Below are positions 1 to 5,356 of a stretch of DNA of 33,212 bases, one piece after another; the stretch's first letter is position 1, and the number at the start of each line of letters is the position of its first letter. The stretch is taken from positions 1 to 33,212 of IMG/VR virus record IMGVR_UViG_3300046804_002300; one strand, 5' to 3'. A program made the position numbers and the translations under genes. Below the pieces are notes generated by a model that was not told where the DNA came from, did no database searches, and saw only the letters and a program-made list of their open reading frames with translations. Origin of the DNA: a virus.

Positions 1-108
1 CCTCGAGCGGCACGCCCTCCCCCCCCACCCCTCCCCCTATCTCTTATTCTTTTACATTGCGCACAAAGGTAGGAGTTGCGAACAATAGTTCCACATCGAG
101 AACAAGGT
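1..108. other. Noncoding left edge with G-rich tract
   Basis: No convincing gene is present before the endonuclease VII stop codon. Positions 15-37 are almost pure C on the plus strand, so the minus strand carries four or more G runs separated by single bases, a strong G-quadruplex-type pattern. The octamer CAAAGGTA occurs at 64-71 and recurs as an inverted pair near 9429-9455. If the genome is circular this stretch would lie in the leader of the methyltransferase/terminase operon that starts at 33155. Confidence 0.5.
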
Positions 109-873: not shown

Positions 874-1606
874 CAGATTGCCTTGCTTTCATTATCGCTT
901 GCAGGTCATACATTGATCCACGCTTCTCAATAGAAAACTTCTTAACGAGACGATAAACCTCTCGTTGTGTCATCTGTAACCAAGCAGAGATGGCTTCGAC
1001 ATCGAGAAAGAATCTGCGATTCGGATTGCTCATTGCCAATGCCACCAATCTCAAGACCGACCAAGTTTGTTTGCATCCAAAGCAACTGACATCTTGTGAC
1101 AACTGTTCAACATCGATGACAACGAATTTGCTGCAATCATCGGTTGGGCAGGGAATCCTTCGAGCCTGTTCCTTGAACTTCTTAGCAGCCGCACGCCCCC
1201 GAGCGTGCAGTTGCCATACTTCCCCTGCAAAGTCTAACGCCCATTCCTGTTGCAATGTCCAAGACAGATGAGCGATATGGAACTCGCAGGTTGCCAAGAC
1301 CTCAGCATCAATAGTTCGCTCCTTGGCGACCAGCGCCGGCGGGGTCAACCGCCGCTCGCGCCTGATGATGGACTCCCAACTGTGAAGGATGGCCAGCAGG
1401 TCGGTAGCCATCGAGAAGTCAAGGGCGTTGACATTGATCCCAATCGAGCGCTCGGCGCTGACACTGCCATCGCCCCCTCGCCCTGGCTCAAGGTAGAAGC
1501 CAGCCTCAAATTGAAGATTAGGCAGCTCTCTCAAGATGGTTCGTAATCGACCGAAGCATCGCCAGCAGTAAGTCTCAATCGCGCTTTTGCAGACATGACA
1601 TAACAT
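866..1606 (-). CDS. Zinc-ribbon and helix-turn-helix protein
   Basis: 246 aa from the ATG at 1606, which overlaps the stop of the upstream gene as TGATG; the frame is open to 1657 but those residues lie over the neighbouring gene. The N-terminus has CHVC...CWRC, a zinc-ribbon pattern. A second CPTDDC...CFGC set lies at about residues 150-180. The last 50 residues resemble a helix-turn-helix/excisionase-like DNA-binding domain (DVEAISAWLQMTQREVYRLVKK). This layout is common in actinophage proteins annotated only as helix-turn-helix DNA-binding proteins. A DNA-binding role, regulatory or in replication, is inferred. The GGGAAAC array lies just upstream of its operon. Confidence 0.65.
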   Translation of the reverse strand: MLCHVCKSAIETYCWRCFGRLRTILRELPNLQFEAGFYLEPGRGGDGSVSAERSIGINVNALDFSMATDLLAILHSWESIIRRERRLTPPALVAKERTIDAEVLATCEFHIAHLSWTLQQEWALDFAGEVWQLHARGRAAAKKFKEQARRIPCPTDDCSKFVVIDVEQLSQDVSCFGCKQTWSVLRLVALAMSNPNRRFFLDVEAISAWLQMTQREVYRLVKKFSIEKRGSMYDLQAIMKARQSDG

Positions 1607-1956
1607 CAGAAGGCAGGCTCCTCTTGCGTAGAATGGACGATGACAGGCGATGACCAATATGACGGCGGGATAGACTCAAAGAGCTTCAATCCTTGGCAGG
1701 TATGGTCAGCCAGGATGATTGATGTCTTCTCATCCCTTGACCATCGAATCCGATTCAAGGTTCTCTCGATAGCCTCAAAAGAAACCCTCGTGCGGAATAG
1801 CTCATAGGTCATCAGACCCGAGAGGCGTTTGACGATTTCTTCCTCAATGGTCAGTCGCGGGGTATCCAGATACTTTTGGAAGCCAGCCCAGGAGATACCA
1901 GCCCAAACCAAGGCTCCGCACCGGCGACAGTTGATAGGCTTGAAATCTTGGTTCAT
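1606..1956 (-). CDS. Small zinc-ribbon protein of unknown function
   Basis: 116 aa. The N-terminus has a single CxxC (INCRRCGALVWAG), comparable to the knuckle in the next gene, and a later pair HTC could complete a metal site. The rest is mixed helix and strand with no family I recognise. It is the first gene after the heptamer array at 1984-2088 and is coupled to the downstream zinc/HTH gene by a TGATG overlap, so the two products probably act together. The ATG at 1956 is preceded by a GAAAG-like weak ribosome site. Confidence 0.6.
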   Translation of the reverse strand: MNQDFKPINCRRCGALVWAGISWAGFQKYLDTPRLTIEEEIVKRLSGLMTYELFRTRVSFEAIERTLNRIRWSRDEKTSIILADHTCQGLKLFESIPPSYWSSPVIVHSTQEEPAF

Positions 1957-2093
1957 CTATTGCTTTCGGGTGACCGTTGCCCTGTTTCCCGTTCCCCCCT
2001 TATAGGGGGGAAACGGGGAAACAGTTGGCACGCTCGAGTCGGTGGTGTTTCCCGAAATAGTGGGAAACGGTTGGGAAACAGGGAAACGGTTAT
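1957..2093. repeat. GGGAAAC heptamer array with near-perfect hairpin
   Basis: This 137-base gap between the Mom-like gene and the zinc-ribbon gene contains GGGAAAC, in either orientation, seven times: 1984-1990 (reverse), 2008-2014, 2016-2022, 2047-2053 (reverse), 2062-2068, 2073-2079 and 2082-2088. Copies at 2062, 2073 and 2082 are 11 and 9 bases apart, about one helical turn. The left group forms a hairpin from 1982 to 2024 with about 18 bp of nearly continuous pairing, and 2047-2068 forms a second palindrome. The arrangement resembles an iteron array or a multi-site operator for the minus-strand operon starting at 1956. Confidence 0.75.
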
Positions 2094-2564
2094 TCACAAG
2101 CAAATCTCCCATCTAACCTTTGGAACTGAAGATTGAATTTGGTTGCGTTTTCTGGTTTTTGTAGTCCATTCAACTTGTTTATTTAATGTTTCAACTAAAG
2201 TCCATCCAGAGGCTTTGTAAATTGTGCCAAAATGCACTTCTGTATCTTGATAGGAAATTAGCCTGATTAGCTCTGGAAATCGTTTTTTAATGTCTTTTTT
2301 CATCCACGATAACATTCGAGAGGCGGTATTCATTGGGGCTTTGTCTTGTATTGCCATACGCCTTAACTCTAGTAATAATTGACCATCTTTTAATCTATTA
2401 GCGGCAATCGGAGAAGACCAAATAGCAACGGCATAATATTGACCCTCAAACCGAGCGCCGTAGCAGATATACCTTCGATTCCTAACCACATTTGACCAAT
2501 CAATTTGTGGGAACCTGCTATGCCAGTGACTGTTCAAAATACAAGCTGTTTGCGCTCGAATCAC
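2094..2564 (-). CDS. Mom-like / GNAT-fold putative DNA base-modification protein
   Basis: About 156 aa from a GTG at 2564, 13 bases past the tRNA; the frame is open upstream to 2741 but runs through the tRNA and into the helicase gene, so that part is not counted as coding. An N-terminal NSHWHSRFP segment, then YGARFEGQYYAVAIWSSP, LELRRMAI and a late SYQDTEVHFGTIYKASGW segment match the pattern of phage Mom and XF1762-like acetyltransferase-fold proteins. Mom of phage Mu modifies adenine in DNA and blocks restriction. The assignment rests on motif resemblance. Its neighbours on the other side of the tRNA are a helicase and a cytosine methyltransferase, which fits a DNA-modification role. Confidence 0.65.
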   Translation of the reverse strand: MIRAQTACILNSHWHSRFPQIDWSNVVRNRRYICYGARFEGQYYAVAIWSSPIAANRLKDGQLLLELRRMAIQDKAPMNTASRMLSWMKKDIKKRFPELIRLISYQDTEVHFGTIYKASGWTLVETLNKQVEWTTKTRKRNQIQSSVPKVRWEICL

Positions 2565-2577
2565 CTCAAAATGAAAT

Positions 2578-2653
2578 TGGAGCGGTGAGGTCGGAATTGA
2601 ACCGCCTTCTGAGAACTGGAAAGCCCCCTGTGTTGCCATTACACCATCACCGC
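2578..2653 (-). tRNA. tRNA-Gly (anticodon UCC)
   Basis: 76 nt on the minus strand with a perfect 7-bp acceptor stem (GCGGTGA with TCACCGC), a D arm containing AATGGCA, anticodon UCC at 2620-2618 flanked by U33 and A37, a T loop TTCAATT, and an encoded 3-prime TCCA. G1-C72, C2-G71, G3-C70, U73 and C35-C36 are the bacterial glycine identity set. Irregularities are a weak anticodon stem with two G-U pairs and one mismatch, and what appears to be a bulged A in the T stem. It lies 11 bases after the helicase stop codon and 13 bases before the Mom-like start. Confidence 0.85.
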
Positions 2654-2664
2654 ATTGGTTTATC

Positions 2665-4728
2665 TTATTCATCAGGAGTCCAAGGTTTGACATCATTGGC
2701 AAAGAAGTCTGATTGATAGCCATAAAGATACTTCTGCCCATCCTTGCGATAGGTCAGATGACCGCCCCCGACAAGACCTTCGAGGACGAATTTAATTTCG
2801 GCATCCTTCATCCCATGACCTTCTTTGCGTAGGCGCTCGGCAATCTCATTCCTGCCCATCTCGTATCCATGGCGGCGCAGTAGGTCACTGACAGCTTCCA
2901 TTCGTTGCTCGCGTGAGGATATCTTGACCGTTCCACCCGAGATTGCCACGGTAATCCCGCCATCATCGAGGGAGCGTAGGTTGGCAACGCCGACGGTCTT
3001 GGCATCGGGGCAGATGGCGCGGACAAAGCCAGGACGATCCTTGGTGCAGGTAATGTCCAAGGCACCGTCAATGCCCCTGCCGAAGGGCATCGCCACTGAC
3101 ACGGCAAATGCCGCCCCGTCGATATCGGCTCTCTTAGCTTGAGCGCCGATGGCGTAGTTGCCACGGTTATCTTTACTCTTGGTGACATGATCAATGGTCA
3201 AGATGCCAGCGCCACCGACGCGGAGAGGTTTGAGGACTTTCTGTGAGAAGGTCGTGGCATCTTTGTTCTTCTCAAGGTCAAGACCGAGCAGATTCATCGC
3301 AGCATTGACTCCATCAACAACAATCAGGGTCGGTAGGTAGGCCATGATTTCAGTTCGCATAATCTCTCCGATGCCTTCGCCTAATGGCTCATCAGGGTTG
3401 GCATAACGGAAGAATTTGAACTTCTCGGTCGGCACACGCAAGGTCTTGAGGCGGTTGAGGATGCTTCGAGCGCTATCTTCAAAGTCAAGATAGAAGACGA
3501 TGTTGTTCTTCTCTAGCTCTTGACGGATGGCTTCGAGTGCTACCCAAGTCTTGCCTGACTCAGATTCTCCGAAGATTGCATTGACCTTGCCGGCATAGAG
3601 AAGGCAGTTGCCATCCTCGCGCTTGAGCATGGTCGGCGGGTTCTCATCTGCTAACTCGGTTTCCTTGATTTGCTTCGGTATCCACGAGGAATCAACGACT
3701 TCGCCTTCTTCATTGTGCAGTTGCACGAGAGATGGCGAATGCACTTCGAGCGTTCCGAGTTCTCTGCGTGCTTCACCATAGCCTTGCGCTCTCAGAGCGC
3801 GTGCAGCAGCTCCGAAGTCTCCGGCGTGTTCGACAAGGGCAAAGACGGCAAACTTGGAATAGGTGCGCTCTGCCTCGAACTGAGTTGAGGTAGTAAAGAC
3901 GAAGAACTTGTCGTTTCCGGCGTGATTGGTCGTCGCCGAGATGCCGTCGTCCTTGCCAGGTCTTCGCCAGGCGGTGACACCGGCGCGGTTGGTATAGACC
4001 TTCGACCAGCCGAGAGGCTCAAGGATTTGTTGCCAGGTGACCTTGGCATTGTAATCATCGCCAGGGGTAAGACCTTCGCCTTTGGTCTTGAGTTCTTCGG
4101 TGATGTGTTCGGTTCTAGGGATTGAATCGAAAGTGGCAAAGAGAGAATGAAGTTGATCTCTTTCGGCCATCGTCAGGGTCGGGATGGACTTCGGCCCGCC
4201 GACGAGCATTGTCCACGCTCCGCCTGACGGATGGCAGGAGCCGCCGGTCGGGGCGACAATGACAAAGCCGCCTTCGCCTCGTGTCTCAGCTAGGACATCG
4301 ATGCCGCCGTTTTCGCCAGGGCGACGAGCAAGTTTGGTATTGCCAGGAACCTCGCCATCGATGCGATAGAGCCAATGCAGACCGCCTGATGGCGTGACTT
4401 CGACATAGCCTTTGTTGATGCGATCCCAGACATCGCTAAGACCGGCGTTGTGAGCCATCTCTTTGAGGTCGAGGTGAATCTTGTCGGCAACTGCTCGACC
4501 TTCTAGCTCTAACATCTCAAGGTTGCCTGAGACTGAACCGCAGATGACACCAACGCCTTGAGTATCGGCAGCAAACCATCCCATCAATTCTGATGTCGTC
4601 GGTCGCTTCTCTTGATATTGCTTCCAACTTGCAACCCCTGGTCGTTTGGAACCGTCCGTTGCAACTGGCACAACCGAGATGCCTTCATTGGCAAGTTCCA
4701 AGGCTCGCAACATGATGTCAGTTTTCAC
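2665..4728 (-). CDS. Prim-Pol primase fused to RecA-like helicase
   Basis: About 687 aa. Residues 1-190 are a bifunctional primase/polymerase (Prim-Pol) domain, seen in the opening segment ending VVPVATDGSKRP, a GVGVICG segment, VTPSGGLHWLYR and GGIDVLAE. Residues about 370-560 are a RecA/AAA_25 ATPase with Walker A GESESGKT near 386 and Walker B LIVVDG near 468. The C-terminus looks like a winged helix. Such proteins prime and unwind phage DNA. The GTG at 4728 has an AGAGGG ribosome site and overlaps the methyltransferase stop; an ATG at 4713 is the alternative. The usual metal-binding DxD of Prim-Pol appears as LELEG here, so polymerase activity should not be assumed. Confidence 0.88.
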   Translation of the reverse strand: MKTDIMLRALELANEGISVVPVATDGSKRPGVASWKQYQEKRPTTSELMGWFAADTQGVGVICGSVSGNLEMLELEGRAVADKIHLDLKEMAHNAGLSDVWDRINKGYVEVTPSGGLHWLYRIDGEVPGNTKLARRPGENGGIDVLAETRGEGGFVIVAPTGGSCHPSGGAWTMLVGGPKSIPTLTMAERDQLHSLFATFDSIPRTEHITEELKTKGEGLTPGDDYNAKVTWQQILEPLGWSKVYTNRAGVTAWRRPGKDDGISATTNHAGNDKFFVFTTSTQFEAERTYSKFAVFALVEHAGDFGAAARALRAQGYGEARRELGTLEVHSPSLVQLHNEEGEVVDSSWIPKQIKETELADENPPTMLKREDGNCLLYAGKVNAIFGESESGKTWVALEAIRQELEKNNIVFYLDFEDSARSILNRLKTLRVPTEKFKFFRYANPDEPLGEGIGEIMRTEIMAYLPTLIVVDGVNAAMNLLGLDLEKNKDATTFSQKVLKPLRVGGAGILTIDHVTKSKDNRGNYAIGAQAKRADIDGAAFAVSVAMPFGRGIDGALDITCTKDRPGFVRAICPDAKTVGVANLRSLDDGGITVAISGGTVKISSREQRMEAVSDLLRRHGYEMGRNEIAERLRKEGHGMKDAEIKFVLEGLVGGGHLTYRKDGQKYLYGYQSDFFANDVKPWTPDE

Positions 4729-5356
4729 GACAAGCCCTCTCCACTTCACTAGCTAACTCGTAGGGAATAACTGACTTCGTTGCGTAGTCTTTCATCCCTT
4801 GAGTGCCTGTCACCGATCCACGCGGCGCTGAGGCGTGGTCGGCGCAACAACAATTAGTTGCGTGATTGGGCTTGCGATTATGACATTCGCCGCGAAAATT
4901 CATAGGCGGAAAAGGTAAGCCCCAAAGGTCAGTTGGCTTTGCTCGATTCTCTCCAAAGTGGCAATACCAAACTGTTACCCTCGGTGCTGGAATCAAATCT
5001 AATTTACGAAGCATCCCTCTTGGGTTTTCCATAATGGCAAATCTTGGCTCAAGGTCTTGGATAAGTTTTACTGTTTTACGAACTAAATTAAGACTCCACT
5101 CTGCCTGAACTGTTTTTGGTCTATGGTCTTTATGCCAATGATGACCAATAGAAGCCACAGAAAAAGTTTCGCAGGGTGGACTAGCAAGAATAACATCAGG
5201 CTTCCAAGGTAAATCTCTTGGTTTTAATAATGAAATGTCAGCAATCAAATCAACTGTGAATTTTATATCCCAATCCACCCTGAAAACTTCGTGACCGCGC
5301 TCGATGAATGGCTTAGACCATCCCCCAAGGCCGGCAAATAAATCAAGAACTTTCAT
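4718..5356 (-). CDS. DNA C5-cytosine methyltransferase
   Basis: 212 aa. Motif I is DLFAGLGG (residues 5-12), motif IV is SPPC with the nucleophile Cys62, and motif VI appears as MENPRG near 110. The later HFGENRAKPTDLWG segment is typical of short phage Dcm-like enzymes. It is shorter than classical restriction-system methyltransferases because the target-recognition region is reduced. It methylates C5 of cytosine in DNA, probably to protect against host restriction. Its 3-prime end overlaps the helicase start by eleven bases. The middle of the gene (about 4960-5270) is visibly more AT-rich than the helicase next to it, which may indicate separate acquisition. Confidence 0.88.
   Translation of the reverse strand: MKVLDLFAGLGGWSKPFIERGHEVFRVDWDIKFTVDLIADISLLKPRDLPWKPDVILASPPCETFSVASIGHHWHKDHRPKTVQAEWSLNLVRKTVKLIQDLEPRFAIMENPRGMLRKLDLIPAPRVTVWYCHFGENRAKPTDLWGLPFPPMNFRGECHNRKPNHATNCCCADHASAPRGSVTGTQGMKDYATKSVIPYELASEVERACREN

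Follow-up and report, generated by a model that had tools for sequence, protein, structure and literature searches.

The window analysed here is a 33,212-nt stretch of viral DNA (IMG/VR record IMGVR_UViG_3300046804_002300) in which a 137-nt gap filled with short repeats lies between a 116-aa gene and a Mom-like DNA-modification ORF. The genes around this array are on the minus strand and their order, in gene sense, is Prim-Pol/AAA_25, an insert (tRNA-Gly and the Mom-like gene), the array and the 116-aa gene (Table 1). The array is not directly beside Prim-Pol in the window only because the Mom-like gene and the tRNA-Gly are inserted between them. Since the 5′ part of the Mom-like ORF overlaps the tRNA, its true start is probably further inside the frame. 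The putative Zn-binding protein of 116 aa had no match in Pfam. A WhiB-like gene is also present in the window and suggests an actinobacterial host; cultured freshwater actinophages carry whiB (PMC10202952). No match was obtained when 8 kb of the window was searched against annotated-phage DNA. The nearest isolate Prim-Pols are those of Arthrobacter Bridgettevirus (47% identity over 44% of the query), in which the next gene abuts Prim-Pol, so that there is no array. A C5-cytosine methylase-like gene adjoining Prim-Pol (window 4718-5356) is found in some relatives only, with 42-44% identity.

Table 1. Position of the array, its elements and the neighbouring genes in the window.
Feature	Position	Strand	Remarks
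116-aa gene right after the array, CRRCG motif, putative Zn-binding	1606..1956	-	non-covarying
Array region, putative origin	1957..2093	.	137-nt gap, 116-aa gene (1606-1956, -) to Mom-like ORF (2094-2741, -)
Degenerate inverted word GGGCAACGG	1974..1982	-	
Word 7, inverted	1984..1990	-	
C-run/G-run hairpin TTCCCCCCT-TAT-AGGGGGGAA	1992..2012	.	counterpart in most relatives: CCCCCTCTTTAGAGGGG
Word 6, GGGAAAC	2008..2014	+	overlaps hairpin arm
Word 5, GGGAAAC	2016..2022	+	
Word 4, inverted	2047..2053	-	
Word 3, GGGAAAC	2062..2068	+	
Word 2, GGGAAAC	2073..2079	+	
Word 1, GGGAAAC	2081..2087	+	first direct word in gene sense
Inserted Mom-like DNA-modification ORF	2094..2741	-	PF25680 E=1e-15, phrog_1384
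tRNA-Gly (TCC)	2578..2653	-	part of the Prim-Pol/array insert
Prim-Pol (PF09250) + RepA-type AAA_25 (PF13481) helicase, 694 aa	2665..4749	-	proposed initiator
C-terminal winged-helix domain, residues 608-690	2680..2928	-	protein half of the specificity cassette; covariation, model, exchange boundaries
Predicted recognition helix H3, residues 649-661	2767..2805	-	structure model
Residues 647-650	2800..2811	-	separate GTTCCG from GTTTCCC loci

Seven exact copies of GGGAAAC/GTTTCCC lie within 105 bp (1984-2088 region) and only 2 more were counted in the rest of the 33 kb. After dinucleotide shuffling of the window (300 replicates), this heptamer never exceeded 2 copies per 105 bp; in 60 shuffles, 3 copies per 105 bp was the upper limit for every 7-mer. 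The compact array of seven heptamers described in the original prediction is thus real, and its density elsewhere in the genome, proposed there as a check, is low. The array has the form expected of iterons, that is, a cluster of short sites, above chance, near a proposed initiator gene. The palindromes, one of them described as a hairpin of nearly 18 paired bases, were recovered as inverted repeats with 18-nt arms at 78-83% together with a perfect 9-nt pair (TTCCCCCCT/AGGGGGGAA) around a 3-nt loop. The start-to-start spacing of the right-group words is 11 and 8, so that of the predicted phasing of 11 and 9 the first value holds and the second does not. A change of GC skew had also been suggested as a sign of an origin; skew over the window gave no signal.

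In order to follow the array in other phages, we scanned for Prim-Pol and obtained several hundred related loci among the matches listed. Those counted were 223 loci in which the 3′ end of Prim-Pol is complete, 218 of them with enough flank (the other five have at most 61 nt). A word array was found at the same place in all 218, these loci being related and their counts non-independent. The common layout is made of 3 direct words, 1 inverted, 2 direct, the C-run/G-run hairpin and 2-3 inverted words. Gene order around the array is conserved; in most loci the array starts near the Prim-Pol stop codon, a few, the window included, having an intervening insert, and it ends 10-40 nt ahead of a start codon.

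The word differs between lineages. Type A loci (n=99) carry GTTCCG, type C (38) CGAACCT, type D (59) CCGCGCC, type E (6) CCGATCC and type Ap (5) TGTTCC[C/T], while GTTTCCC, the type B word of the window, is found in 11. Hence the exact heptamer array, whose conservation in related phages had been made a test of the prediction, is present in 11/218 loci, whereas the architecture is kept in every one with other words. The switch occurs by lineage: all copies of an array change together and the layout is kept. The four words of the first locus set are unmixed within arrays, with the exception of single stray A or B words. In longer arrays (~230-260 nt; L026, L033-L036, L039, L054, L087, L137), a second word block is found upstream, flanked by TTTACGCTCAAA-like sequence, and A and C types are alike in this layout. 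Between the Prim-Pol stop codon and the array lies an insertion hot spot: the insert of the window occupies 2094-2665 and other inserts of 0.6-1 kb were observed in the same place (L028, L029, L074, L105, L118).

Folded as single-stranded DNA, the 137-nt gap reaches -31 kcal/mol (z -5.4 compared with shuffles). A fold of this strength would also be expected of an RNA element or a terminator in the intergenic transcript, and at other places the hairpin core does occur by itself, in simple hairpins that have A/T tracts and look like terminators. In the array, no T-run follows the hairpin as it would in an intrinsic terminator, and no Rfam match above the gathering score was found. Moreover, the leftmost words, which are unpaired in the fold, hold the lineage word as strictly as the paired ones, which points to double-stranded binding sites, and the partner that covaries with the word (see below) is a helix of DNA-binding type. 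We therefore consider an RNA function extremely unlikely. Even less credit can be given to a coding repeat, represented by a 51-aa ORF (1957-2112, minus strand): this frame is open in the window and a related one exists in L045, but array lengths vary by non-multiples of three and no one frame is open across the word types.

We then asked which protein covaries with the word. Six neighbour proteins were compared. In the first set, 17 columns of Prim-Pol part A from C loci at 100% accuracy. No such column was detected in zn116 (the 116-aa gene), zn263, orf69 or orf142, and the only one in orf68 is a start codon, with only 10 proteins compared. The zinc/HTH protein had been put forward as a possible binder along with the Prim-Pol helicase; no column of the zinc/HTH proteins covaries with the word, and sequence comparison thus favours Prim-Pol. 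The analysis was extended to 92 distinct Prim-Pols (43 A, 17 D, 16 C, 6 B, 6 E and 4 Ap). Between A and C, residues do not overlap at 13 columns, every one of them within 608-690. Between A and B, type B being represented by 6 distinct proteins of which 5 are closely related, 5 of ~675 columns tested are non-overlapping and 4 of these are residues 647, 648, 649 and 650. With residues 645-655 as input, nearest-neighbour prediction gave the correct word for 92/92 proteins, and for 86/88 when winged helices ≥90% identical were excluded. The corresponding values from residues 16-600 were 79/92 and 62/88.

Region 608-690 is predicted to fold as a winged helix (H1 613-627, H2 633-642, H3 649-661, wing 665-678; mean pLDDT of the model 79), and the DNA-binding domains of Hop2, BlaI and Fur are among its best structural matches (E ~1e-3 to 1e-2). 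With H3 predicted at 649-661, residues 647-650 would correspond to the turn and the first residues of the recognition helix. Together, these comparisons indicate that, among the six neighbour proteins, covariation with the word is limited to the C-terminal winged helix of Prim-Pol.

The winged helix physically adjoins the array, and part of the A/C covariation could consequently reflect linkage. Trees were compared for two parts of the protein. On that of residues 16-600, word type has to change 15 times, and supported branches force at least 7 changes for type A and likewise for type C. With residues 608-690, 6 changes suffice, one more than the minimum of 5. In four pairs of loci whose words differ (L019/L042, L046/L020, L041/L017 and L040/L016), identity on either flank is mostly 90-100%. 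Between the flanks it drops to ~50-60%, over a stretch that begins ~300 nt ahead of the Prim-Pol stop codon and extends to ~130 nt beyond it, and it is back to 91-100% in the next gene. The low-identity block, ~430 bp, coincides with the winged helix plus the array. These alignments are direct evidence that the two were exchanged together, as one block, between phages that are nearly identical in other respects. It could be argued that winged helix and array merely hitch-hike together in a recombination hot spot without interacting, as they are adjacent and both lie inside the exchange blocks. However, the blocks stop at the array and the equally close 116-aa gene on its other side does not covary, the match between word and winged helix persists where inserts of 0.6-1 kb separate the gene from the array, and the A versus B difference falls where the recognition helix begins instead of being spread over the domain. 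The clean neighbour and the A/B pattern argue against linkage, which as the sole explanation appears very unlikely.

To evaluate how far the arrangement extends beyond this family, the hairpin core CCCCCTCTTTAGAGGGG was used in an exact scan. It was found at no fewer than 120 viral loci, compared with 0 viral contigs for a control hairpin of equal composition (CCCCCTGTTTACAGGGG). Of the hairpins that do not belong to the four main word types, 53/74 had a significant word array. The 3′ end of an AAA_25 ORF lies 28-514 nt before the hairpin in 42/53 array loci versus 2/18 array-less loci (Fisher p 4e-7, kinship of loci uncorrected). Array-bearing loci form 14 protein clusters, namely the window family and 13 further AAA_25 clusters, each with its own word(s). 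Our local AAA_25 model was partly built from these loci, so that the independent result is that of Pfam, which assigned AAA_25 to 18/20 proteins tested. The primase modules that accompany these AAA_25 proteins are Prim-Pol, Toprim, CHC2, PriCT_2, DnaB-N or none recognised. In the Toprim/AAA_25 group (L159), the C-terminal model has moderate confidence and weak structure matches, and the winged helix is accordingly claimed for the window family and not in general.

Among cultured phages, a repeat cluster was found right after the AAA_25 gene in Paenibacillus phage Vegas (GCCGCAA), Bacillus phage BCJA1c (AAATGAA), Enterococcus phage EFC-1 (AATAGCT) and Streptococcus phage Javan68 (AAGGACA). Gordonia phage Upyo and the Arthrobacter phages have no repeat cluster after the gene. 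In Rhizobium phage 16-3 (L438, 2628-3080), 14 copies of CGTGACA and a CTCCTTTAGGAG hairpin with loop CTTTAG follow p101 (AAA_25-like), making this phage a tractable model for the candidate origin. In bacterial genomes, CCCCCTCTTTAGAGGGG is mostly dispersed in a few MAGs and 5/119 loci are near AAA_25; it is many-fold dispersed in an Oscillospiraceae MAG and in Anaerolineaceae MAGs (L314-L432), mostly without a nearby AAA_25. The 17-mer alone is therefore not diagnostic, whereas the word array combined with AAA_25 is. In the full text of the papers covered by our search, the hairpin sequence had one unrelated oligonucleotide match and no other. We tentatively suggest, as an idea that may well not hold throughout, that C4-TCTTTAGA-G4 could be the invariant part of phage origins that form a broad class not yet described. 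In this class, a RepA (AAA_25) primase-helicase with any primase module would read lineage words through a C-terminal winged helix and would load or prime at a shared hairpin 3′ of its gene, and cassettes of winged helix plus words would be swapped under selection by origin-targeting parasites.

The conserved layout, the coordinated switching of words, the covariation confined to the winged helix and the block exchange support an origin. From these comparisons, the array is very probably a replication origin of this freshwater phage, with iterons that would be bound by the Prim-Pol winged helix and are exchanged with it as a specificity cassette; of the readings originally offered (origin, iteron set or operator), origin and iteron set are the best supported. 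In the mechanism that we propose, the C-terminal winged helix of the Prim-Pol/AAA_25 primase-helicase would bind the GTTTCCC words, and this binding would nucleate or load the AAA_25 helicase ring at the adjacent hairpin. The hairpin may be the site of strand opening or of priming start; priming there by the Prim-Pol domain would follow the example of SaPI Rep and pRN1 ORF904. Word binding, ring nucleation and opening or priming at the hairpin would together make the array an origin, and word plus winged helix constitute the ~430-bp specificity cassette swapped by recombination.

Initiators that double as regulators are common, and the array could alternatively be an operator through which the Prim-Pol winged helix or another regulator controls the operon headed by the 116-aa gene, replication starting elsewhere. 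Its end 10-40 nt upstream of a start codon and the BlaI/Fur kind of the closest structural matches would fit such a role. Nevertheless, a search limited to the sigma-70 type found no promoter-like sequence in 1850-2250, operator function needs no hairpin, and unrelated phages have the array after a primase-helicase gene, not after a regulator gene. We thus regard operator function in place of an origin as unlikely.

The proposed mechanism resembles those of SaPI Rep/ori and pRN1; binding of the words by the winged helix could serve initiation or regulation. In SaPI Rep and SCCmec Cch2, iterons located immediately 3′ of the gene are bound by the C-terminal domain of its product (PMC7581432). 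The window system likewise has a self-contained initiator helicase with a C-terminal DNA-binding domain and an array 3′ of the gene, the position and the domain being observed and the origin function putative. It differs in helicase class, since the SaPI/SCCmec helicases are hexameric 3′-5′ AAA+ enzymes (PMC7581432) and that of the window is a RepA/RecA-type AAA_25 fused to Prim-Pol, and in the near-constant hairpin beside the words. As in pRN1 ORF904, Prim-Pol, helicase and C-terminal winged helix are united in one protein. The stem-loop directly downstream of ORF904 is essential for replication and conserved in structure, not in sequence, an arrangement proposed for phages too (Bordetella phage BIP-1); gel shifts detected no binding of the protein to the stem-loop region, and the motif that it binds was described as 'not yet identified' (PMC4234260). 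A large stem-loop 3′ of the gene whose structure is kept despite sequence change is found in the window system as well. In contrast, the pRN1 helicase belongs to SF3, a family that the AAA_25 helicase of the window does not match, and pRN1 has no iterons, whereas here a motif covarying with the winged helix is proposed. RSF1010 oriV/RepA also combines an AAA_25-type hexameric helicase with iterons and hairpins at the origin, but there a separate RepC binds the iterons (PMC8965321, PMC4234260), while the proposed binder of the window is fused to the helicase. In PLE satellites of Vibrio cholerae, the origin and the origin-binding domain of RepA are co-exchanged and the origin-directed nuclease Odn was proposed as selector (PMC8263062). 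PLE differ by an N-terminal RepA_N domain, iterons of ~30 bp and at least 2 exchanges in a satellite; the window family is one of phages, with at least 7 forced changes each for A and C and visible ~430-bp exchange blocks. At a guess, exchange in this family could be selected by escape from origin-targeting parasites or competitors. We did not find the helicase class, the constant hairpin or the graded covariation of word and helix described in the papers searched.

Since pRN1, the way in which initiators that fuse primase and helicase recognise their origins has been an open question. Six word types with matched recognition helices, one pair of which differs by four residues, make the putative binding code directly testable, and the array offers a means, needing sequence only, of finding origins in phages that have not been cultured. 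The results further suggest that origin identity is changeable in common freshwater phages, a point of relevance to co-infection, satellites and defences aimed at origins. As a minor observation, related contigs end a few hundred bases beyond the endonuclease VII gene (window 1-108; L110, L111, L116, L117, L123) and several of them share the terminus ...GGGGGGAGTTCAC; the genome probably does end at this point, which lies ~2 kb from the array.
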